A DNA stretch of 64,000 nt. Origin: Paracoccaceae bacterium. GTDB lineage: Bacteria; Pseudomonadota; Alphaproteobacteria; Rhodobacterales; Rhodobacteraceae. Under the pieces are notes generated by a model. The model was not told the DNA's origin, made no database searches, and was given only the letters and a program-made list of their open reading frames with translations. Shown in pieces: positions 48,003 to 58,763 of the stretch; positions within the stretch are counted from its first letter, which is position 1, and each line of letters begins with the position of its first letter. Location: positions 1 through 64,000 of the forward strand of contig WKFK01000005.1 of the NCBI GenBank assembly GCA_014872815.1, in the 5' to 3' direction. The translations under genes and the position numbers were made by a program.

Positions 48003-48644
48003 TCAAAGTCTCTCTGTGCAGGCGGCGCAACATGAACGGCACCGCAAATGAACCGACCGGACAAGGCGAAGGGAGGCCTAACCTGCCCAGGTCGGATCGA
48101 TACAAAGGCACGACAGAGCTTTAGGATCCCCTAACACCGGTCTGCACATAGCAAGTGTAAAACCCCATTCACACAACAACCCTTGAGCGTATTCCCCTTT
48201 AAAACTTGCTGCAAAAGCAGATTTCACCTTTGATTTCCCACCCGTGTGATCATCGCTACAAGCCTCTGAAAAAGCGACATTTCCTCTCCGCGACGGCGGG
48301 TCAATCTGTCGCGATCAACTGGCACTCAAAGGCGCCACACCGGAAGCCACGGATCGCCCACCCCACAAAACATGCCTCAAATCTTAGCTAAAAAGCGACA
48401 GAGGACGCTTCTACCACGGCTGTTGAAAGACGCTGCCCCTTCAAATCATCCACCAATCACACATCGCCGTATTCTCTTGAAAGACGGCAGATCAGCCCCC
48501 CAAGTGACGCTAGGGAAGCAATTGCGGGGAAATGGGTCAAGTATTTGCAATTGCGCCAAAAACACCCTTGCTCAAAACGCCTCTAGGTTGCACGTTACCC
48601 ACGGATTTGACTGCCTACATGCCGTCACTGGGAGGACACTACTT
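48003..48644. promoter_or_regulatory. Divergent promoter region of uxaC and uxuA
   Basis: A 642-bp gap with no convincing gene; an in-frame extension of uxuA runs through it but lacks similarity to the family. It must contain both promoters and probably the operator of a GntR-type hexuronate regulator, which I could not locate. A GGAGG at 48631-48635 is the uxuA ribosome binding site. Confidence 0.4.
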
Positions 48645-49850
48645 TTGAAACAAACGTGGCGCTGGTTTGGTCCGGCAGATCCGGTTGATATTTATGACCT
48701 GCCCCAAATCGGTGTCCAGGGCGTCGTCACCTCGCTCGATCATATCCCCCCCGGCGCGCCTTGGTCCAAAAGTGACATTCGCCAACGTCAGGCGGACATC
48801 TCCAAACCGACCCCACACCCCACCGGGCTCAACTGGGATGTGGTCGAAAACCTACCTGTCTCAGACGTCATCAAGACCAAAGCCACCGGCTATGCCGCCC
48901 ATATCGCAGCCTACAAAGAAAGCCTGCACAATCTCGCAGGCTGCGGCATTCAAACCGTCTGTTACAACTTTATGCCCGTGCTGGATTGGACCCGCACCAG
49001 TTTTGCCGCCCGCATGCCGCACGGCGGCACCGCCATGGCCTTCGACATCGTGGACTTTGCACTGTTCGATCTTCACCTACTGGCCCGCCCCGCCGCGGAA
49101 GACGACTACAGCGCCACCATCAAACAAGCGGCGGAAGCCCGCTTTAACACACGCGATGACTCAGCCAAAACGCGCCTGATCAACACCATTCTCGCCGGGG
49201 TCCCTGGCGCGAACAATCGCTGGACCCTCTCCGATGTGTCCGACCTGCTTGCCCTTTACAGCGACATCAACACAGCCCAGCTGCGCACCAACTTGATTGA
49301 TTTCCTCTCCGAAGTGGTCCCGGTGGCCGAAGAACATGGCATGCGCCTGTGCTGCCAACCCGATGATCCTCCCTTCCCGCTTATGGGCCTACCACGTGTC
49401 CTGTCCTCCACGGCGGATTATGAGACCATTTTGTCCGCCATCGATACACCCGCGAACGGTGCGGCTCTGTGCACAGGCTCTCTCGGCGTCGCGCCCGGCT
49501 TTGACGTCGCAGATTTTGTGTCCCGCCTTGGACCGCGCATCCAATTTGCCCAGTTGAGCAACACACGGCGCAAAGGTGCCTCTGATGGTCCGCGGGTCAG
49601 CTTTCATGAATCCATGCATCTGGACGGCGACACAGATATGGTGATTGCCATCCGTGCCCTGCTCAAGGAAGAAGCCCGGCGCAAGGCCGAGGGCCGCAGC
49701 GATTGGGAAATCCCCATGCGTCCGGATCACGGACAACACATCCTCTATGATTTGCACAGCGGCTCTCTGCCCGGCTATCCGCTCATCGGCCGCGCCAAGG
49801 GGCTGGCAGAACTGCGCGGCGTGATGGCTGCACTCAGCGCGGATTTATAA
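48645..49850 (+). CDS. uxuA: Mannonate dehydratase
   Basis: A 401-residue enzyme dehydrating D-mannonate to 2-keto-3-deoxygluconate. The N-terminus KQTWRWFGPADPVDIYDLPQ and GVQGVVTSLDHIPPG match UxuA closely, and the later HESMHLDGDTDM and MRPDHGQHILYDLHSGSLPG carry the metal/catalytic residues of the family. The start is TTG at 48645: GGAGG lies nine bases upstream, the next residues are exactly the family N-terminus (LKQTWRW), and no ATG is near. It overlaps the mdeR gene on the other strand by 6 bp. Confidence 0.92.
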   Translation: MKQTWRWFGPADPVDIYDLPQIGVQGVVTSLDHIPPGAPWSKSDIRQRQADISKPTPHPTGLNWDVVENLPVSDVIKTKATGYAAHIAAYKESLHNLAGCGIQTVCYNFMPVLDWTRTSFAARMPHGGTAMAFDIVDFALFDLHLLARPAAEDDYSATIKQAAEARFNTRDDSAKTRLINTILAGVPGANNRWTLSDVSDLLALYSDINTAQLRTNLIDFLSEVVPVAEEHGMRLCCQPDDPPFPLMGLPRVLSSTADYETILSAIDTPANGAALCTGSLGVAPGFDVADFVSRLGPRIQFAQLSNTRRKGASDGPRVSFHESMHLDGDTDMVIAIRALLKEEARRKAEGRSDWEIPMRPDHGQHILYDLHSGSLPGYPLIGRAKGLAELRGVMAALSADL

Positions 49851-50300
49851 AGCTGGAAACACCGCCGTCTTTTTCACGGTGCCGTAGGCAAAGGTGGTGT
49901 CGATACTGGCAATTCCACCAATCGGATGAATGCGCAGGCGGATGAATTCCTCATAGGCCTCCAGATCGCTCACCACCACGCGCAGCTGATAGTCCGTTGC
50001 CCCCGTCAAAACGTGGCATTCCAGCACCTCGTCAATCAGCATCACAGCGCGCTCAAACCGCTGCACGTCCTCTTCATTGTGCCGCTCCAGCTTGACGCGC
50101 ACAAACACCGTCACCGGCAGGCCATAAGCCTTGGCGTCCACTTCCGCGCCATAGCCAGTGATCGCGCCGGAACTTTCCAGATTGCGCAGCCGCCGCAAAC
50201 AGGGGCTTGGCGACAGGTTCACCGCCTCCGCCAAATCCTGATTGGTCATGCGCCCATTGGCCTGTAAAGCCCGAATGATCTGACGATCCTTGGCATCCAT
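49845..50300 (-). CDS. mdeR: Lrp/AsnC-family regulator (MdeR-like)
   Basis: A 151-residue feast/famine regulator. The winged helix-turn-helix is at the N-terminus (DAKDRQIIRALQANGRMTNQ, DLAEAVNLSPSPCLRRLRNL) and the C-terminal RAM ligand domain includes CHVLTGATDYQLRVVVSDLE and the IASIDTTFAYGTVKKT end. It is divergent from methionine gamma-lyase with a 118-bp gap, the same arrangement as mdeR-mdeA-mdeB of Pseudomonas putida, where MdeR activates in response to methionine. AAGGAG lies just before the ATG at 50300. The name is by context and family. Confidence 0.85.
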   Translation of the reverse strand: MDAKDRQIIRALQANGRMTNQDLAEAVNLSPSPCLRRLRNLESSGAITGYGAEVDAKAYGLPVTVFVRVKLERHNEEDVQRFERAVMLIDEVLECHVLTGATDYQLRVVVSDLEAYEEFIRLRIHPIGGIASIDTTFAYGTVKKTAVFPAL

Positions 50301-50311
50301 TCCACGACTCC

Positions 50312-50328
50312 TTGGCAGATTCTGCTAA
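50312..50328. promoter_or_regulatory. Candidate MdeR operator
   Basis: TTGGCAGATTCTGCTAA is a 17-bp palindrome with a single mismatched pair around a central T. It lies 12 bp before the mdeR start, overlapping its ribosome binding site, and about 90 bp before mdeA. Position and symmetry suit an Lrp-family dimer site. Confidence 0.6.
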
Positions 50329-50418
50329 CATTCTATTCATTGGCGCTATTTTTCGCAATCACCTGCCCCACCCTCTCCCTCAAACTGACCCCAACAGTTT
50401 CACGCGAGGACCCTTCCC

Positions 50419-51633
50419 ATGACCAAACGCAACGCGCCGCAAGGCTTCGCCACCCGTGCCATCCACCACGCCTATGACCCACAGGACAACGAAGGCGCGC
50501 TGACACCACCGCTGCACCTCACCTCCACCTTCACCTTTGAAACCGCGCAAGCAGGCGGCGAAATGTTTGCCGGCGACCGCGTGGGCCACATCTATTCGCG
50601 CATCTCCAACCCAACCTGCGATCTGCTGGAACAGCGCATTGCCACGCTGGAAGGGGCCGAAGCCGGTCTGGCTCTGGCCTCCGGCATGGGCGGCATCACC
50701 GCCACGCTCTGGACCTTGCTCTCCCCCGGCGACGAACTCATTGTCGACAAAACGCTCTATGGCTGCACCTTTGCGTTCATGCAGCACGGTCTGGCGAAAT
50801 GGGGCGTGACCATCACCCACGTCGACATGACAGACATCGACAACCTGCGCGACGCCGTCTCTGACAAAACCCGCGTGGTCTACTTTGAAACCCCGGCCAA
50901 CCCCAACATGCGTCTGGTCGATATCGCCGCCGCCTCCGAAATCGCCCACAGCGTCGACGCCACCGTGGTAGTCGACAACACCTACGCAACGCCCTACCTG
51001 ACCCGCCCTATCGAGCTGGGCGCGGACATCGTTCTGCACTCCGCCACCAAATACCTCGGAGGCCACGGCGACGTCGTAGCGGGCCTCGTGGTCGGCTCCG
51101 CAGAGCAGATCGCCGACATCCGTCTAGTGGGCATGAAAGACATGACCGGCGCGGTCATGGCACCGTTCAACGCCATGCTGATCTTGCGCGGCCTCAAAAC
51201 CCTCGCCCTGCGTCTGGACCGACACGTGCAATCTGCGATCACTGTTGCGGAATGGCTCGAAAGCCATCCAGCCATTGAATCCGTCTATTTTCCGGGCCTG
51301 AAGAGCTTCCCACAGCATGAGCTGGCAGAGCGTCAGATGGACAAGCCCGGCGCGATGATTGCCTTTGAACTGGTCGAAGGCCACGACGCAGGCATCGCGC
51401 TGATGAACAACCTCAACCTCATCCAGCGGGCGGTGTCCTTGGGCGACGCCGAAAGCCTGATCCAGCACCCGGCCTCCATGACCCACTCCACCTACACGCC
51501 GGAAGAGCGTGCCGCGCACAACATCACCGAAGGCCTCGTGCGCCTGTCTGTGGGCCTTGAGGAAGTCGAGGACATCCTCGCCGACCTCGCGCAAGCGCTT
51601 GACGCCCTGCCCACCCGCATCGCGGCTGAGTAA
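50419..51633 (+). CDS. mdeA: Methionine gamma-lyase
   Basis: A 404-residue PLP enzyme splitting L-methionine to methanethiol, 2-oxobutyrate and ammonia. The PLP lysine is K211 (LHSATKYLGGHGDVV). Cys116 in KTLYGCTFAF, which marks methionine gamma-lyases off from cystathionine gamma-lyase or gamma-synthase, is at exactly the P. putida position. The Tyr/Arg pair IYSRISNPT at 59-67 contacts the PLP phosphate. It is followed after 69 bp by mdeB on the same strand, so the 2-oxobutyrate product can be consumed by the paired E1. Divergent from mdeR. Confidence 0.93.
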   Translation: MTKRNAPQGFATRAIHHAYDPQDNEGALTPPLHLTSTFTFETAQAGGEMFAGDRVGHIYSRISNPTCDLLEQRIATLEGAEAGLALASGMGGITATLWTLLSPGDELIVDKTLYGCTFAFMQHGLAKWGVTITHVDMTDIDNLRDAVSDKTRVVYFETPANPNMRLVDIAAASEIAHSVDATVVVDNTYATPYLTRPIELGADIVLHSATKYLGGHGDVVAGLVVGSAEQIADIRLVGMKDMTGAVMAPFNAMLILRGLKTLALRLDRHVQSAITVAEWLESHPAIESVYFPGLKSFPQHELAERQMDKPGAMIAFELVEGHDAGIALMNNLNLIQRAVSLGDAESLIQHPASMTHSTYTPEERAAHNITEGLVRLSVGLEEVEDILADLAQALDALPTRIAAE

Positions 51634-51702
51634 GCCCCTCCGTCTTGGCGTGCTACACTCATGCCAAGGCCCCTCTCCCCGATTGCCCACCGGAGCCAGA
51701 CA

Positions 51703-54075
51703 ATGACCGACACCCAGCACCTTAAGACCATCGAACAACGCCTGCTGTGGCTGTCCCATTGGATGATCCACAACGCCAACCACATCCGCGCCAAGGAAGA
51801 CGGCATCAAGATTGGCGGCCATCAGGCCAGCTCGGCCTCCATGGTCTCGATCATGACCGCGCTCTATTTTGCCACGCTCAAGCCCGAAGACCGGGTTGCC
51901 GTGAAACCCCACGCCTCGCCGATCTTCCACGCCATGCAATATCTGATGGGCAATCAGACCCGCGAGAAGATGGAAAACTTCCGTGGCTTTGGCGGCGTGC
52001 AAAGCTACCCGAGCCGCACCAAGGACATCGACGATGTAGACTTCTCCACCGGCTCCGTGGGCCTTGGCGTGGCAATCACCTCCTTTGCCTCGCTGATCCA
52101 AGACTACATCACCGCCAAAGACTGGGGCGCGGACGCGCCGCAAGGCCGCATGGTCGCGCTGGTTGGGGACGCAGAACTGGACGAAGGCAACGTCTATGAG
52201 GCCCTGCAAGAAGGCTGGAAAAACGACCTGCGCAACACCTGGTGGATCATCGACTACAACCGCCAGTCCTTGGACGGCATCGTGCGCGAGGGCCTGTTTG
52301 AGCGCGTGGAAAAAATCTTTGACGCCTTTAGCTGGGACGTGGTGCGGGTGAAATACGGCGCCCTGCAACGCGCCGCCTTTGCCGAGCCTGGCGGCGACAA
52401 GCTGCGCGACTGGATCGACACCTGCCCCAACCAAGACTATTCGGCGCTGACCTTCATGGGCGGCGCAGTCTGGCGCAAACACCTGATGGACGATCTCGGC
52501 GACCAGGGCGACGTCACCGCGCTCCTAGATCGGCGCAGCGACGAAGAACTGGCCGAACTGATGGAAAACCTAGGTGGCAACTGCGTGGAAACCATGGCGG
52601 AGACCTTCGCCGCCATCGACCACGACCGCCCCACTTGCTTCCTCGCCTACACCATCAAAGGCTGGGGCACGCCGATTGCAGGCCACAAAGACAACCACGG
52701 GGGTCTGATGAACAAAACGCAGATGGCGGCGTGGCAGAAACACATGGGGGTGGCCGAAGGCGACGAATGGGAGCCCATGGCCACCGTCGCCGACCCAACT
52801 GCGCTGCGCGATTTTCTCTCTGAAGTGCCCTTCTTCGCCCAAGGCCCACGCCGCTTCTCTGACGCCAAACTGCCTGTTCCGACTATCTCGCTCGACAGCG
52901 ATCACGAAACCTCCACGCAAATGGCCTTTGGCAAAATCCTCGACGATCTCTCCAAAGGCGACAGCGCACTGGCGTCCCGCATCGTGACCACCTCGCCTGA
53001 TGTGACCGGCACCACCAACCTTGGCCCCTGGGTCAACCGCCGCAAACTCTTCGCCCGCGAAGCCCAGGCCGATGCCTTCATCGAGCACCGCATCCCCTCA
53101 ACCGCCAAATGGGAGTTCACCCCCGAAGGCCAGCACATCGAGCTGGGCATTGCCGAAATGAACCTGATGTTGCTCTTGGGGGCCGCAGGGCTGTCTCACT
53201 CCCTTTTTGGCAAACGCCTGATCCCCATCGGCACCGTTTACGACCCTTTTGTCTCCCGCGGCCTCGATGCGCTGAACTACGCCTGCTATCAGGACGCCCG
53301 CTTCCTGTTGGTCGGCACCCCCTCCGGCGTGACGCTTGCGCCCGAAGGCGGCGCGCATCAATCCATTGCCTCCCCGCTGATCGGCATGTCCCAAGACGGC
53401 CTGGCCTCATTTGAACCGGCCTTTGCCGATGAGCTGGCGGTGATCATGGAGTGGGCCTTTGATTACCTGCAACGCGACGGCGAAGGCGACCCAGACGAGC
53501 GCACCTGGCTGCGCGATGAAACCGGCGGCTCCGTCTACTTGCGCCTGACCACAAATCCCATCGAGCAGCCGGGCAAACGCCACGACGACGCCTTCAAACA
53601 AGGTGCCATCGACGGCGCCTACTGGCTGCGTCAACCCGGCCCCAACTGCGAGGTGGTGATTGCCTATCAAGGCTCCGTCGCGCCTGAAGCGATCAAGGCC
53701 GCCGGACAGATTGCCAACGACCGACGGGATATTGGCGTTCTGGCGGTCACATCGGCAGACAGGCTGAACGCTGGCTGGACCGCCGCCCAGCGTGCACGCG
53801 CCCGCGGGCAGATGTCGGCCCAAAGCCACATCGAGCGGCTTTTGGCTGAGCTGCCGCCCCACTGTCGCTTGCTGACGGTGATCGACGGCCACCCCGCCAC
53901 CCTCAGCTGGCTCGGCGCAGTGCAGGGCCACCAAACCCTGCCGCTTGGCGTGGAGCACTTTGGCCAAACCGGCACCATCGGCGACCTATACCGCCACCAC
54001 GGGCTGGACGCCGCCACCATCGTCTCCCGCATCAACGCGCTCACTTTGGGACGCCAACTTCTGCCACAGACCTAA
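51703..54075 (+). CDS. mdeB: AceE-like E1 2-oxoacid dehydrogenase (MdeB-like, 2-oxobutyrate)
   Basis: A 790-residue homodimeric-type E1, resembling AceE but about 100 residues shorter. The TPP/metal motif is VGDAELDEGN (from about residue 154), with IIDYNRQSLDG completing it, GGHQASSASM at the N-terminus, and the transketolase Pyr domain (ELGIAEMNLMLLLGAAGLSH) and C-terminal domain later. By family knowledge MdeB of P. putida decarboxylates 2-oxobutyrate made by MdeA; the neighbourhood supports that role. GGAG precedes the ATG at 51703. It ends in a strong terminator. Acetyl/propionyl transfer would need an E2 encoded elsewhere. Confidence 0.88.
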   Translation: MTDTQHLKTIEQRLLWLSHWMIHNANHIRAKEDGIKIGGHQASSASMVSIMTALYFATLKPEDRVAVKPHASPIFHAMQYLMGNQTREKMENFRGFGGVQSYPSRTKDIDDVDFSTGSVGLGVAITSFASLIQDYITAKDWGADAPQGRMVALVGDAELDEGNVYEALQEGWKNDLRNTWWIIDYNRQSLDGIVREGLFERVEKIFDAFSWDVVRVKYGALQRAAFAEPGGDKLRDWIDTCPNQDYSALTFMGGAVWRKHLMDDLGDQGDVTALLDRRSDEELAELMENLGGNCVETMAETFAAIDHDRPTCFLAYTIKGWGTPIAGHKDNHGGLMNKTQMAAWQKHMGVAEGDEWEPMATVADPTALRDFLSEVPFFAQGPRRFSDAKLPVPTISLDSDHETSTQMAFGKILDDLSKGDSALASRIVTTSPDVTGTTNLGPWVNRRKLFAREAQADAFIEHRIPSTAKWEFTPEGQHIELGIAEMNLMLLLGAAGLSHSLFGKRLIPIGTVYDPFVSRGLDALNYACYQDARFLLVGTPSGVTLAPEGGAHQSIASPLIGMSQDGLASFEPAFADELAVIMEWAFDYLQRDGEGDPDERTWLRDETGGSVYLRLTTNPIEQPGKRHDDAFKQGAIDGAYWLRQPGPNCEVVIAYQGSVAPEAIKAAGQIANDRRDIGVLAVTSADRLNAGWTAAQRARARGQMSAQSHIERLLAELPPHCRLLTVIDGHPATLSWLGAVQGHQTLPLGVEHFGQTGTIGDLYRHHGLDAATIVSRINALTLGRQLLPQT

Positions 54076-54084
54076 CCAACACCG

Positions 54085-54110
54085 CGCGCGCCCAAAAGGC
54101 GCGCGTTTTT
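54085..54110 (+). terminator. Rho-independent terminator after mdeB
   Basis: CGCGCGCC (54085-54092) pairs with GGCGCGCG (54098-54105) around CAAAA, followed by TTTTT. It lies 10 bp beyond the mdeB stop and separates it from the tandem array. Confidence 0.9.
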
Positions 54111-54179
54111 CTTCTGACGGTTTTAGAACCGACCCCGCCTGTCGCCCCGCACTGAACGACCAAACCAAAAGACGACCAC

Positions 54180-54620
54180 TTGCCTGCGCGCGCCACTCTC
54201 CTGCCCCACGCCTCACTGCTGTACTTTGAACTTTATGACACCGTTCATCCCGGCGAGCTCTGGCAAACCCCAAACGCCACGTATCAAAGCCCCGAATACA
54301 CCCGAGGCATGACCGAAGTCGGGGATTTTCGCGGCGTCACCGACATGCAGGTCGGATATGACGACATGCTGACATTCACCAAGACCTATAACGCCTTTCA
54401 TTCTTCTGATCCGGCCCCCCTCACCCTGTTCTTGTTGGAACAAAATTGGCTCGGCTTCTGTATTGCCAAAATGCACATTGCCTTTTCGCGATCCATGTAA
54501 AGCCCCATAAAGATCAACGTCTTGCCCGCCTTTCCCGAGATTTTTGCAGCCCTTGAGCTGTCTAACACGCAAATCGCGGAGTTTCCTCAACACTGTCGTC
54601 AGGAAGCGCACCTGCTGTAA
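54180..54620 (+). pseudogene. Array copy 1, interrupted by an in-frame TAA
   Basis: This copy aligns with the others over the full 146 positions without a gap, from TTG at 54180 (LPARATLLPHASLLYFELYD) to the conserved end EFPQHCRQEAHLL at 54618. Codon 107 is TAA (54498-54500), where the other copies have Glu, Asp or Asn; a single substitution such as GAA to TAA explains it. The remaining sequence beyond the stop is still conserved (INVLPAFPEIFAALEL), so inactivation is recent, or the stop is read through, or it is a sequencing error. The initiator is TTG where two other copies have ATG. Upstream ribosome binding is weak. Confidence 0.75.
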
Positions 54621-54689
54621 CCAATTTTTCAGCGCGCAAGTCGCGCCTGCCGCTTGACCGATTGCCCTGTTCCCGCCATCGTCAAAACC

Positions 54690-55148
54690 ATGCCCATTGA
54701 AGTCGAAATCCTAACGCCAGCACCGCTTGTCTACAGCCGCTTCACCGGCAGCGTCACTTTGGAGGAATTTGCGATTTCCTCCCAAGCTCTGCATGGCAAT
54801 CCGGATTTCTACCCCGGCATGCACATGATTCTGGACATGCGCGCGCTGGAAGATTTTGATGTTGGTTTTGACGAAATGAAGGCCTTTACCGCCAATATCC
54901 AGAAACGTCACAAGGAACGGGGCGAAGCCGTTTTTATCTTCATCATCTGCAGCACCGAACAAAGCCACTGGCTGGCCGAAATGTTCCGGTCGCTTTCAGA
55001 CGTTGAAGATGGCTTGGCACAAGTTGAGATCCTTCATGGGTTCCCCGACATCCTCGCCATTCTGGACCTGCCGCAAGAAACACTCCAGTTTTTCCCCGAA
55101 GACTGCCGAAGCGAGGCGCACCTGCTCACCCGTTCGTCACCGCAATAA
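54690..55148 (+). CDS. Array copy 2, uncharacterised protein (152 aa)
   Basis: A soluble 152-residue protein. It starts MPIEVEILTPAPLVYSRFTG, has GFDEMKAFTANIQKRHKERG in the middle and ends LPQETLQFFPEDCRSEAHLL plus a unique six-residue tail (TRSSPQ). It is the most diverged copy, with V-F-I-F-I-I-C where the others have LVxVG. The alternating strand/helix pattern with a G-x-V-T turn and an acidic D49 resembles small STAS/SpoIIAA-like proteins, but I do not assign it. The ATG at 54690 is fixed by alignment with the other copies; there is no clear ribosome binding site. 69 bp after copy 1. Confidence 0.75.
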   Translation: MPIEVEILTPAPLVYSRFTGSVTLEEFAISSQALHGNPDFYPGMHMILDMRALEDFDVGFDEMKAFTANIQKRHKERGEAVFIFIICSTEQSHWLAEMFRSLSDVEDGLAQVEILHGFPDILAILDLPQETLQFFPEDCRSEAHLLTRSSPQ

Positions 55149-55253
55149 GTCCATTTCAGCTTGGCAGGCGTGGCACCTCAAGCTATGCCTTTGCATCTCA
55201 AAACACTCAAAACTGTATCCAATACCGAGCAGAGTGCTGAAAAGGAAAACAAA

Positions 55254-55694
55254 TTGCCACTCAGCGTCAACGTGATTCCGCAACTTGGCCTGCTGCACAA
55301 CGTCTACTTTGGGCGTGTGACCATACAAGATTTCGAGGATCAGAAAAAACAGCGCAGCAAAACCAGTGCCTTCAAAATGCCGATGCCACGGGTGAACGAC
55401 CTGTCGCAGGTGACTGAGGTGGACATCGGCTTCAACGAACTTCTGGTACATGCACAGGAAACCGGAAAAGCCCTTTCCAATATCTCAGAGCCCATTCAGC
55501 TTGTGATGGTGGGCGACAATCCGTTCACCTCTACCGCTGTGGCCATGTATGAAAACCTCTATGCGGCCTGTAACATTCCCTTCGAAATGCACGTCGTGCG
55601 CGGTTACCCGGAAGTTCTGGCAACGCTGAACCTGCCAGAAGACAGCCTTCAGTACTTCCCGGATTTTTGCCGTGACGAAAGCCATCTGCTCTAA
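55254..55694 (+). CDS. Array copy 3, uncharacterised protein (146 aa)
   Basis: A 146-residue paralogue. From its start it reads LPLSVNVIPQLGLLHNVYFG, with KMPMPRVNDLSQVTEVDIGF around residue 50 and the end LPEDSLQYFPDFCRDESHLL. It is closest to copy 4 (shared VNDLSQVT, MYENL, HVVRGYPEVLATLNLP). TTG at 55254 is taken as start because AAGG lies eight bases upstream and the length then equals the family core exactly; a 31-codon in-frame extension upstream exists but is not conserved. Function unknown; no signal peptide or membrane span. Confidence 0.78.
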   Translation: MPLSVNVIPQLGLLHNVYFGRVTIQDFEDQKKQRSKTSAFKMPMPRVNDLSQVTEVDIGFNELLVHAQETGKALSNISEPIQLVMVGDNPFTSTAVAMYENLYAACNIPFEMHVVRGYPEVLATLNLPEDSLQYFPDFCRDESHLL

Positions 55695-55766
55695 CGCAAT
55701 GTCATGACCTGTGCCCCTGCGACACGCGCCTCAATAACGCGGCCGTGCAAGGGAACACACAACCAT

Positions 55767-55824
55767 GGCAAGGGGCTTGCCCTGATAACCGATGCATCGC
55801 ACACTCTCCCTAAGGAGGAAAGCG
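55767..55824 (+). repeat. Duplicated leader of array copy 4
   Basis: The 58 bases before copy 4 (from GGCAAGGGGCTTGCCCTGAT to the start codon, including GATGCATCGCA and AAGGAGG) match the 56 bases before copy 5 (56297-56352) at most positions. The duplication unit therefore included promoter/leader sequence as well as the coding region. Confidence 0.7.
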
Positions 55825-56265
55825 ATGCCCGTCAGCGTCACAGTCATTCCTGAACTCAGCCTTGTGCACAATGTCTATTCCGGCGTTGTGACCATTCAGG
55901 ACCTGTATGACGAGCAAACCAAACGCGACAGCCACCCCGCTTTCAAAATGGGCATGCCCGGTGTGAACGACTTGTCTCAAGTCACCGATGTGGACATCGG
56001 CTTTGATGAAATGCTGGCCTACGCGAAACACACGATGAAGCTTTACCGCCACGTGACGGAACCCATTCATCTTGTTCTGGTGGGAGAAACACCGGCCACC
56101 GCCACAGCAATGGCCATGTATGAAAACCTCTCTGCTGCCACCGATGCCCCTTTCCTCGTGCATGTTGTACGAGGGTACCCGGAGGTACTGGCAACCTTGA
56201 ACCTACCACCGGACAGCCTGAAACACTTCCCGGATTTCTGCCATGACGAAAGCCACCTGCTCTAG
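55825..56265 (+). CDS. Array copy 4, uncharacterised protein (146 aa)
   Basis: A 146-residue paralogue with the best ribosome binding site of the array (AAGGAGG seven bases before the ATG at 55825). It reads MPVSVTVIPELSLVHNVYSG, VNDLSQVTDVDIGFDEMLAY around 48-67, LVLVGETPATATAMAMYENL, and ends HFPDFCHDESHLL; the usual Arg after Cys139 is His here. Predicted soluble alpha/beta. Upstream 58 bases resemble those before copy 5. It is probably expressed, but its role is unknown. Confidence 0.82.
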   Translation: MPVSVTVIPELSLVHNVYSGVVTIQDLYDEQTKRDSHPAFKMGMPGVNDLSQVTDVDIGFDEMLAYAKHTMKLYRHVTEPIHLVLVGETPATATAMAMYENLSAATDAPFLVHVVRGYPEVLATLNLPPDSLKHFPDFCHDESHLL

Positions 56266-56296
56266 CCCTCAGGCGCAAAAACTTCCTGCCCAAAAC

Positions 56297-56352
56297 GGCA
56301 ATGGGGTTGCCCTGACAAAAGATGCACCGCAAACTCATCAAAAAGGATAGCG
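56297..56352 (+). repeat. Duplicated leader of array copy 5
   Basis: Counterpart of 55767-55824: GGCAATGGGGTTGCCCTGAC, GATGCACCGCA and AAGGATAGCG precede the ATG at the same spacing. The ribosome binding site is weaker than that of copy 4. Confidence 0.7.
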
Positions 56353-56793
56353 ATGCCCGTCAGCCTTACAATTATTCCTGAACTCAACCTCGTCCACATC
56401 ATCTATTCGGGACGGGTTACACCGCAGGAACTCTTTGATGAGACCCAAGCCTGCTACCAGCGACCTGAATACCGGTCCGGCATGGCCGAAATCAGCGACT
56501 TTTTTCAGGTGACCTCGTTTGAGATTGGCTATGACGAAATGCATGATTTCACCACCCGCTCACAAAGCACTCATGGCGGCGTCGGCACAGGAATGGACAT
56601 TTGCTTGGTGGGCAGCACCAAAGTATCAGAACCGGCAATTCTCATGTACGAAGGCTTGATTGCCGCAAAGGAAATCCCAATTCGTCTGCATGTCGTGCCC
56701 GGTTACCCAGAGGCCTTGGCAATGCTCGACTTGCCAGAAGACAGCCTCAAGTACTTCCCTGAACGCTGCCGCAGCGAACGCCACCTGCTCTAA
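56353..56793 (+). CDS. Array copy 5, uncharacterised protein (146 aa)
   Basis: A 146-residue paralogue starting MPVSLTIIPELNLVHIIYSG (first 10 residues almost as in copy 4) with PEYRSGMAEISDFFQVTSFE around 38-57 and ending LPEDSLKYFPERCRSERHLL. In its centre it is nearer to copy 1 (shared YQxPEYxxGM, GYDxM) than to copies 3 and 4, so the array is a mix of at least two sublineages. AAGGATAG precedes the ATG at 56353. It converges on gshA, whose stop is 26 bp away. Function unknown. Confidence 0.82.
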   Translation: MPVSLTIIPELNLVHIIYSGRVTPQELFDETQACYQRPEYRSGMAEISDFFQVTSFEIGYDEMHDFTTRSQSTHGGVGTGMDICLVGSTKVSEPAILMYEGLIAAKEIPIRLHVVPGYPEALAMLDLPEDSLKYFPERCRSERHLL

Positions 56794-56819
56794 GCCGACG
56801 GCGTTCGCGTTGACCGATA

Positions 56820-58190
56820 TCAGTAGCTGTACGCGCCGTAGATCTGGCTCAGATCGCCATTCCAATCGCCGTGATAGCGCTCCAGCAACTCGTCCGCTGG
56901 CACCTTGCCGCTCTCTACGCTTTCTTTCAGCGCGTTCAGGAAATGGGTCTCATTGGGCACAAGTCCACCGGCCCCCGGCTTGGCCCGCGCCACCAGACCT
57001 GCTTCTGAAATCGCCAGCACTTCGCGCGCCAGATCGTGCATCTTGATTTTGCCGACCTGAGCTTGAAGCCCGTCTTCACTGGCCGCAACCCGCAGCGCCT
57101 CGCGCGTCTCCGCATCCCAGCCTTTCACCAAATCCCAGGCCGCATCCAGCGAGGACTGATCATACATCAGCCCCACCCAGAACGCGGGCAAAGCACAGAG
57201 CCGCCGCCATGGACCGCCATCCGCGCCGCGCATTTCCATGAATTTCTTGATCCGCGCCTCAGGGAAGGCGGTGGTCAGGTGATCCGCCCAATCGCTCAGG
57301 GTAGGCATCTCACCGGGCAGTGCCGGCAGCTCACCCTTCAGGAAGTCACGGAAGGACATGCCCAGCGCATCGATGTATTTCCCATCGCGATAGACAAAAT
57401 ACATCGGCACATCGAGCGCATATTGCACCCAGCGCTCAAAGCCAAAACCCTCTTCAAACACAAAGGGCAACATGCCGGTGCGGTCATCATCCAGATTGCG
57501 CCAGACCAACCCGCGGGTGGATTTCACCCCATTGGGTTTGCCATCCAGAAACGGCGAGTTGGCAAACAGAGCATTGGCCACCGGCTGCAAGGCCAGCGCC
57601 ACGCGCAGCTTCTGCACCATGTCCGCCTCAGAGGCAAAATCGAGGTTCACCTGCACGGTGCAGGTGCGATACATCATCACCTTACCCATGGTGCCCACGC
57701 GGTCCATGTAATCAGTCATCAGCTTATAACGCCCTTTGGGCATCACCGGCATCTGCTCATGGGACCAAATGGGCGCCGCGCCAAGCCCAATGAACCCAAC
57801 CCCAATCTTGTCCGCGATGTCTTTCACATCGGTCAGGTGTTGGTTCACCTCATCACAGGTCTGGTGGATGCTCTCCAATGGCGCGCCGGACAGTTCCAAC
57901 TGCCCACCGGGCTCAAGGCTCACATTGGCGCCGTCTTTTTCCAAGCCAATCAGCTTGCCGCCTTCTTCCAGCGGCGACCACCCGTGCCCATCACGCAAAC
58001 CTTCCAGCACCGCCAGAATGGAGCGCTTGCCCTCATAGGGCAGCGGCTTCAGCGTGTCTTTGCAATAGCCAAACTTCTCGTGTTCGGTGCCAATACGCCA
58101 GTCTTCTTTGGGTTTGCAGCCAGAGCTGAGGTATTCCGCCAGCTGGTCGTGATGCTCAATCGGCCCGCCGCCGGACTGTGGGATAGACAT
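56820..58190 (-). CDS. gshA: Glutamate-cysteine ligase, plant/alphaproteobacterial type
   Basis: A 456-residue ATP-dependent ligase making gamma-glutamylcysteine, the first step of glutathione synthesis. It belongs to the GCS2/plant-type family shown by IGTEHEKFGYCKDTLKPLPY near 40, EPGGQLELSGAPLESIHQTC near 95, MTDYMDRVGTMGKVMMYRTC and TCTVQVNLDFASEADMVQKL; length is typical. GGAG lies about eight bases before the ATG at 58190. It converges on the tandem array. Plant-type enzymes are redox-controlled by disulfides; several Cys are present, but I did not assign the pair. Confidence 0.93.
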   Translation of the reverse strand: MSIPQSGGGPIEHHDQLAEYLSSGCKPKEDWRIGTEHEKFGYCKDTLKPLPYEGKRSILAVLEGLRDGHGWSPLEEGGKLIGLEKDGANVSLEPGGQLELSGAPLESIHQTCDEVNQHLTDVKDIADKIGVGFIGLGAAPIWSHEQMPVMPKGRYKLMTDYMDRVGTMGKVMMYRTCTVQVNLDFASEADMVQKLRVALALQPVANALFANSPFLDGKPNGVKSTRGLVWRNLDDDRTGMLPFVFEEGFGFERWVQYALDVPMYFVYRDGKYIDALGMSFRDFLKGELPALPGEMPTLSDWADHLTTAFPEARIKKFMEMRGADGGPWRRLCALPAFWVGLMYDQSSLDAAWDLVKGWDAETREALRVAASEDGLQAQVGKIKMHDLAREVLAISEAGLVARAKPGAGGLVPNETHFLNALKESVESGKVPADELLERYHGDWNGDLSQIYGAYSY

Positions 58191-58253
58191 AGGCTTGCTC
58201 CGCTCCTGCAAACTCGCTTGGGAAATCAGTCGTGATCGGAAATCACTACGGTG

Positions 58254-58763
58254 TCAATGCAACCGCCGATCATCTTTCGCCCAAATCACAACCGGTTGAT
58301 CCGGCGTCGCCTTCAACTTAGCCAACATGTTTTCCGTGCGAATACCATCCAGCGACGCAAAGGCATCAAAAAGCGCATCTGAACCTTCGGCATTCACCGG
58401 AATATGCAAAGGCGCCTGCCCCGGTTGATAGAGTGCCCAGACCGGCGGCGTGCTGCGCCCGTCCAGCACCACGCGGCTCAGGCTGCGAATGGCGACACTG
58501 CCACCATTGAGCGGCCCAAAGTAAGCCACTTCGCCTTCGTCCACCTGCACCACACCCGGACCACCTTTGCCGATCCGAAAGCGCCCGCGCTGCAAACCGC
58601 TCACGATCAACACCGCGCCCACGGCGACAAGGCCAATGCCGAGCCATTTCATCACACCAAAGCCACTGGCCCACCAAACCCCAAGCAGCAGCACCGCGCC
58701 GCCCACTAGGGCTTCCCGCCACTGCGCCACCGCCGCGCGCGCCTCAGGTCGAATGAATGTCAT
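58254..58763 (-). CDS. Uncharacterised membrane protein (169 aa)
   Basis: A 169-residue protein of unknown function with two adjacent hydrophobic helices near the N-terminus (ALVGGAVLLLGVWWASGFGV and WLGIGLVAVGAVLIVSGL), then a soluble domain of about 100 residues beginning GRFRIGKGGPGVVQVDEGEV. This resembles the PH-like/YdbT-type membrane proteins only loosely. AGAGG lies nine bases before the ATG at 58763. It is upstream of gshA on the same strand with a 63-bp gap, so they may be co-transcribed. Confidence 0.75.
   Translation of the reverse strand: MTFIRPEARAAVAQWREALVGGAVLLLGVWWASGFGVMKWLGIGLVAVGAVLIVSGLQRGRFRIGKGGPGVVQVDEGEVAYFGPLNGGSVAIRSLSRVVLDGRSTPPVWALYQPGQAPLHIPVNAEGSDALFDAFASLDGIRTENMLAKLKATPDQPVVIWAKDDRRLH

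Follow-up and report, generated by a model that had tools for sequence, protein, structure and literature searches.

A tandem array of small proteins with a predicted SpoIIAA-like fold beside gshA in a Paracoccaceae bacterium

The array and its copies

The DNA analysed here, referred to as the window, is the first 64,000 nucleotides of contig WKFK01000005.1 (assembly GCA_014872815.1) from a Paracoccaceae bacterium, apparently of the genus Shimia; at 54180..56793 it carries a tandem array of homologous small genes whose products are predicted to adopt a SpoIIAA/STAS-like fold. A search of the window with a profile of the four intact copies matched five plus-strand stretches, starting at 54180, 54690, 55254, 55825 and 56353, each aligned over profile positions 1-146. 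The homology among the copies is far beyond chance: with copy 5 as the query, E values were 2.0e-38 for copy 4, 7.2e-33 for copy 3, 1.7e-24 for copy 2 and 2.1e-22 for copy 1, so that even copy 2, on whose relationship the initial annotation had made the family depend, is clearly homologous to the others. Identity to copy 4 is 65% for copy 3, 47% for copy 5, 30% for copy 2 and 27% for copy 1. The starts listed below were placed by homology, longer open frames extending upstream in copy 2 (164 codons), copy 3 (177 codons) and copy 4 (157 codons); the type letters are those of the phylogeny described further on.

54180..54620, plus strand: copy 1, type A, probable pseudogene whose frame is cut by a TAA at 54498-54500 (codon 107); 106-residue product if made
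54690..55148, plus strand: copy 2, type C, 152 residues, of which 146 form the core (modelled with AlphaFold) and 6 extend the C terminus
55254..55694, plus strand: copy 3, duplicate of type D, with a TTG start and a D-type leader
55825..56265, plus strand: copy 4, type D, 146 residues
56353..56793, plus strand: copy 5, type E, 146 residues, predicted SpoIIAA-like fold

The locus had initially been annotated as five intact genes of exactly equal length, which does not hold: the five stretches do align over the same 146 codons, but copy 1 is broken, and copy 2 runs from an ATG at 54690 to a TAA at 55146-55148, past the shared 146 residues. The exact length applies to copies 3-5, on their homology-set starts, and to the shared core of all five; a relative in the array of another genome of the genus (L039:6917-7345 in G009) has 143 residues. 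Copy 1 begins with a TTG codon, and a simple scan found no Shine-Dalgarno-like motif there, nor at the intact copy 2. In a tree of 43 array sequences, broken copies included, its terminal branch is 0.44, against 0.029-0.12 in the other four type A sequences, and its ratio of nonsynonymous to synonymous substitution rates (dN/dS) is 0.13-0.22 against three relatives, which give 0.06-0.12 among themselves. Because of the stop at codon 107, the long branch and the raised dN/dS, copy 1 is probably a young, decaying pseudogene; it may alternatively reflect a sequencing error or encode a working 106-residue product.

Predicted fold and family assignment

The array family lies outside all the curated families searched. 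Neither Pfam nor NCBIfam gave a match above chance for the copies, and matches of family members were weak and scattered (best E 0.011). STAS (PF01740) did not match the four intact copies or the copy 1 fragment at E values up to 10, no copy or relative passed the Pfam cut-off for PF11964, and a sequence search of the PDB returned chance-level matches only (best E 0.19). The label 'DUF4123 domain-containing', which UniRef attaches to one relative from Shimia sagamensis, found no support among Pfam matches at E up to 1. Literature searches on Shimia, Rhodobacteraceae, MMSDH and STAS/SpoIIAA-like proteins turned up no work on the array proteins. The initial view of a family of no recognised assignment therefore stands, since profile searches gave no confident match to a well-characterised one.

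The compact SpoIIAA/STAS-like fold suspected from the letters alone is well supported by prediction. AlphaFold models of copy 5 and of the copy 2 core reached predicted local distance difference test scores of 87.6 and 90.1, respectively, and when both were compared with PDB structures, SpoIIAA and SpoIIAA-like proteins came out best, with CRAL-TRIO chains tied. SpoIIAA was the best Foldseek match, and PF11964 proteins of the 2ook/2q3l type were best in a second structural comparison. At the profile level the signals are fainter. The array profile scored 13.2 against PF01740 in hhalign, inside the range of shuffled controls; a profile that also included the mmsA-linked proteins described below, to which the array family aligns with 99.4% hhalign probability over 133 columns, scored 17.2 against shuffles of up to 15.8. 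Against PF11964 the hhalign probability was 24%, weak but above shuffles.

The array proteins thus resemble the SpoIIAA/STAS antagonists in predicted fold and topology, and their D49-xxx-V53 strand motif aligns with the D-xxx-V of STAS, but they have no Pfam match to PF01740, a profile score at shuffle level, no acceptor Ser/Thr, and an additional C-terminal helix followed by a conserved tail. PF11964 (formerly DUF3478; 2ook, 2q3l), of which members are present elsewhere in the window's genome, is closest in the second structural comparison and in its weak, above-shuffle profile match; it differs in that the array proteins have no Pfam match to it, contain at most one tryptophan each and end in a different tail. 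The fold itself is a known one; what is new is a family without the usual phosphorylation site and its array of five to six copies.

Conserved and type-specific residues

Residue counts were made over the 43 array sequences, which include close orthologues, so that their independence is overstated. The column aligned to the STAS acceptor serine is a glycine (G59) in 43/43 and never Ser or Thr, whereas Ser stands at the acceptor column in 25 of 28 STAS comparison sequences; these columns were equated by a weak hhalign register and by eye. Ser or Thr occurs once at position 58 and in 34/43 at position 54, five residues before G59. The missing acceptor disfavours a classical partner switch, in which the array proteins would be antagonists phosphorylated by an RsbW-type kinase. 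SpoIIAA as best Foldseek match, the frequent Ser/Thr at position 54 and an RsbW-type HATPase in the genome fit such a scheme, but HATPase_c_2 passes the cut-off just once, on contig 14, and an ordinary STAS gene 86 bases away is the likely partner of that match; we consider a partner switch of this kind very improbable.

Nearly invariant positions are G20 (39 of 43), P38 (38), D49 (42), M98 (42), G117 (43) and P119 (43), followed in the tail by P136 (43), C139 (41), E142 (42), H144 (40) and L145 (43). The C-terminal part, with a helix at 118-125 and the tail motif FPxxCxxExHLL, is nearly invariant. Types were compared over 25 sequences of types A-E, a set from which broken copies, copies occurring in a single genome, and copy 3 with its orthologue in G015 were omitted. 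Residues 118-128 and the tail belong to the segments that the types have most in common, and the loop at 57-59 shows full conservation inside each type, with type-to-type differences at 57 and 58. A metal site formed by Cys139, Glu142 and His144 was considered and rejected, as the cysteine is lost in some type E members and is not strictly needed.

The resemblance to PF11964 raises the possibility that the array proteins carry small nonpolar ligands at the surface of the membrane, with different ligands for the variants. Such a role has been proposed for the 2ook/2q3l proteins by analogy to CRAL-TRIO/Sec14, in an account (PMC2954212) that describes lid tryptophans on helices alpha2 and alpha3 for two proteins, with several in 2q3l. 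These cannot all have counterparts in the array proteins, with 0 or 1 tryptophan in each of the 43 sequences, and all 25 sequences of types A-E are strongly acidic (net charge -9 to -17), so that ligand carriage, an analogy in the first place, seems unlikely.

Flanking genes and distribution

The array lies between methionine catabolism genes and gshA, as first annotated, in the following setting.

50419..51633, plus strand: methionine gamma-lyase (NF005695 over cut-off)
51661..54075, plus strand: transketolase/pyruvate dehydrogenase E1-like (AceE-like) 2-oxoacid dehydrogenase component (aceE model below cut-off)
54084..54106, plus strand: hairpin resembling an intrinsic terminator, with a T tail (9 pairs, 8 of them G-C), in the spacer that follows the E1-like gene and precedes the array
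56820..58211, minus strand: glutamate-cysteine ligase (gshA), convergent with the array (TIGR01436 over cut-off)

The region holds four terminator-like sites against 3.1 expected, a count that is not significant by itself; the argument for a terminator at 54084..54106 is its position directly 3' of the E1-like gene. No Rfam family matched at gathering scores in 49500-58500, and a sigma-70 scan of the array gave one site against 1.3 expected. Since sigma-70 sites occur at the expected number, the boxes resembling CTTGAC or CTTGAA in many, though not all, leaders are not claimed as promoters.

A survey of copy number in relatives, suggested in the initial annotation, covered 25 genomes of the genus, the window's included. 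A family match was found in 16, and six of these (G000, G009, G014, G015, G019 and G022, one of them the window's) have five to six copies in a row beside gshA, counting broken ones. Elsewhere in the genus there are two copies in G007 and in G012, one in G011, two divergent ones in G006, and in G020 a single type A copy cut by the contig end. In all ten complete loci the family genes adjoin the 3' end of gshA at less than 60 bases. The 3' side of gshA was also read over 5-9 kb in 14 genomes (G013 and G020 not among them), 13 of which gave no family-profile match over that distance, the exception being G006 with two. At the level of the order, where the best ten candidates per genome were scored, the family was matched in 111 of the 390 genomes sampled, and among the matches listed no run of more than two adjacent family genes occurs outside the genus.

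Nine of the 25 genus genomes have a relative of the E1-like gene; G020 and every one of the six with long arrays are among them. In G006, G007, G011 and G012 family genes stand beside gshA and no E1 relative was found in the genome; a dependence of the array on the methionine genes was therefore dropped. A D-mannonate dehydratase gene (UxuA) lies near the array at 48372-49850 of the window, and a glucuronate isomerase gene (UxaC) forms the other flank of the array in G007, which suggests that the methionine genes may be an insertion separating uronate genes from gshA.

Three of the 25 genomes also encode an 84-residue protein, apparently a two-helix membrane protein, with no Pfam match. Its gene lies between types D and E in G009 (L039), between types C and D in G019 (L038), and alone beside gshA in a third genome (G023:C5:216086-216334); it may be an old resident of the gshA site.

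Evolution of the array

In the tree the array sequences group mainly by type across species and not by genome. Starred support was obtained for type A (copy 1), type C (copy 2) and type D (copies 3 and 4); type E (copy 5) falls just under the support threshold (94/99), and type B, absent from the window, does not resolve as a group. Placement is poor for several deep forks and for several copies that occur in one genome only. Shimia sagamensis has orthologues of types C, D and E. Nei-Gojobori estimates were obtained for 57 of 58 within-type pairs and are rough, many dS values exceeding 1; in the 54 of these pairs that do not involve copy 1, dN/dS is 0.04-0.16, a range indicating that the intact types are under purifying selection.

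The sequences upstream of copies 3 and 4 bear traces of recombination, the relevant feature being the following.

55767..55806, plus strand: leader of copy 4, homologous to the copy 5 leader at 56297-56336 (z 12.8)

Over 200 shuffles, the copy 4 leader gave z scores of 5.5-12.8 against five E leaders and no more than 1.3 against any of four D leaders; G022 did not contribute its E leader because its genes lie only 23 bases apart. The copy 3 leader reached 5.0-7.5 against three of the four D leaders, 1.0 against that of G014, and at most 3.8 against E leaders. The leaders in G015 follow the same pattern as window copies 3 and 4. Because the leader of copy 4 is E-like and that of copy 3 is D-type, the comparison suggests that unequal crossing-over between D and E leaders left this pattern, which would place one D-type gene behind an E-type control sequence.

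The G014 array contains another broken copy, with an in-frame TAG (L036:6901-7338), so the window is not the only place where a single copy has decayed. Judged from these sequence comparisons, the array follows birth-and-death evolution with long-lived types, and both grows and decays. It had been proposed that the locus reflects selection for several variants rather than random duplication. The types common to several species and their low dN/dS speak for retained variants; the contrast itself is too strong, because the copy 3/4 leaders indicate unequal crossing-over and copies are broken in the window and in G014. Tandem paralogues, copy turnover and a broken copy might also be expected of an array whose variable proteins serve immunity or defence. 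However, the types are conserved across species under strong purifying selection, the four intact copies have no PADLOC or PHROG match, copy 4 has no phage or plasmid match, and the genes adjoin gshA in every complete case, so that a defence role appears extremely unlikely.

The mmsA-linked relatives

A relative of the array proteins was found downstream of mmsA in 22 of the 25 genus genomes; at all 22 best loci the two genes share a strand and mmsA is no more than 1.5 kb away. Of the 28 family-level loci outside the genus, 20 have mmsA at that distance or closer. The next genes of the operon in G014 are an acyl-CoA (coenzyme A) dehydrogenase-like gene, 3-hydroxyisobutyryl-CoA hydrolase and HIBADH, a gene content pointing to valine breakdown. 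These linkages, together with the position of the window array after methionine gamma-lyase and the E1-like gene, are what would be expected if family members had an accessory part in the CoA-linked catabolism of amino acids (valine, and methionine as far as propionyl-CoA), where they would stabilise or tune an enzyme. Against this, the terminator-like hairpin separates the E1-like gene from the array, and the four genomes with family genes by gshA and no E1 relative found, among them G007 with glucuronate isomerase on the other flank, leave such a role rather improbable.

Within the genus, a relative of 7TMR-DISM-GGDEF proteins (7TMR-diguanylate cyclases) follows on the same strand in 12 of the 22 loci (L187-L197, L199), inside the apparent valine-breakdown operon, after mmsA and the SpoIIAA-like gene. 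Evidence for the GGDEF domain itself comes from five of the twelve: Pfam detected it in G005 and G010, and the tblastn match covers it in G021, G014 and G009; in the other seven the available stretch stops before the GGDEF part. Direct-binding regulation of diguanylate cyclases, in the manner of SiaC on SiaD and with variants for different cyclases, is the analogy that this arrangement brings to mind, although it is the neighbourhood of the mmsA-linked relative only. SiaC in complex with SiaD is also among the Foldseek matches (E 0.017), and the STAS proteins BgrV and HsbA control cyclases, according to PMC8457831. Several observations point the other way. SpoIIAA matches outscore SiaC, no GGDEF gene was seen among the identified flanking genes of the array, and in none of the 28 family-level loci outside the genus was a 7TMR-GGDEF relative found within 1.5 kb. 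The window's own genome (L218, contig 16) keeps mmsA and the GGDEF gene with no relative detected between them, so the pair is not obligate. Cyclase regulation by the array proteins is accordingly a doubtful prospect.

In the mmsA match of the window's genome the search flagged one TAG. The same genome has two further relatives, one beside EcsC and a phosphoenolpyruvate-utilising (PtsP-like) gene and one beside MarC and an acetate/propionate kinase gene.

Discussion

The reading that we prefer, with a probability of about 0.42, is that phosphorylation-independent adaptors of SpoIIAA fold are encoded here in a tandem array shaped by birth and death, and are kept as versions with different partners. 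It is favoured because SpoIIAA-fold proteins act mainly by protein binding, as PMC8457831 and PMC7367683 describe for SpoIIAA, SiaC and MlaB. Each intact copy would be a small, acidic, cytosolic adaptor controlling a partner by direct binding, with the beta3-alpha2 loop and helices alpha2 and alpha3 as the putative partner face. Its state might be set by its amount, the leaders differing between copies, or by a ligand, instead of phosphorylation of a Ser/Thr in the beta3-alpha2 loop. The type-specific residues 57-58 beside the invariant G59 may choose the partner, and helix 118-125 with the FPxxCxxExHLL tail may serve as a shared docking or dimerisation element. The retained types would then differ in the partner that they bind, or else be components of a mixed complex, the family having presumably expanded locally through unequal crossing-over. 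We entertain only tentatively, as an improbable elaboration, that adaptors with one docking tail and a differing switch loop form either interchangeable subunits of a mixed complex or a partner-specific panel, whose make-up is retuned by duplication and exchange of 5' leaders.

Several diverged STAS-fold paralogues in one organism are also found in the RsbR proteins of the stressosome, which carry an N-terminal domain and a phospho-threonine; the array proteins, unlike these, are single-domain. SiaC, like the proposed adaptors, is a small SpoIIAA-type protein acting by binding, and the genus mmsA-linked relative lies near a 7TMR-GGDEF relative in 12/22 loci; SiaC, however, is switched by phosphorylation of T68 (PMC8457831), and the array proteins lack the acceptor and have no cyclase seen beside them. 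MlaB, the STAS subunit of the MlaFEDB transporter, is likewise small and binds its partner, and its phosphorylation had not been shown as of PMC7367683; it differs in keeping Thr52 at the acceptor position and in belonging to an ABC transporter complex.

By its predicted fold, a family without a name, present in 111 of 390 genomes sampled across the order, joins the SpoIIAA-like superfamily, apparently without the phosphorylation switch. Its conserved site downstream of mmsA, within the genus often before a 7TMR-diguanylate-cyclase relative, names concrete candidate partners. The array itself offers a natural series of types with measured divergence, in which the surface that sets partner choice in SpoIIAA-fold proteins becomes testable.

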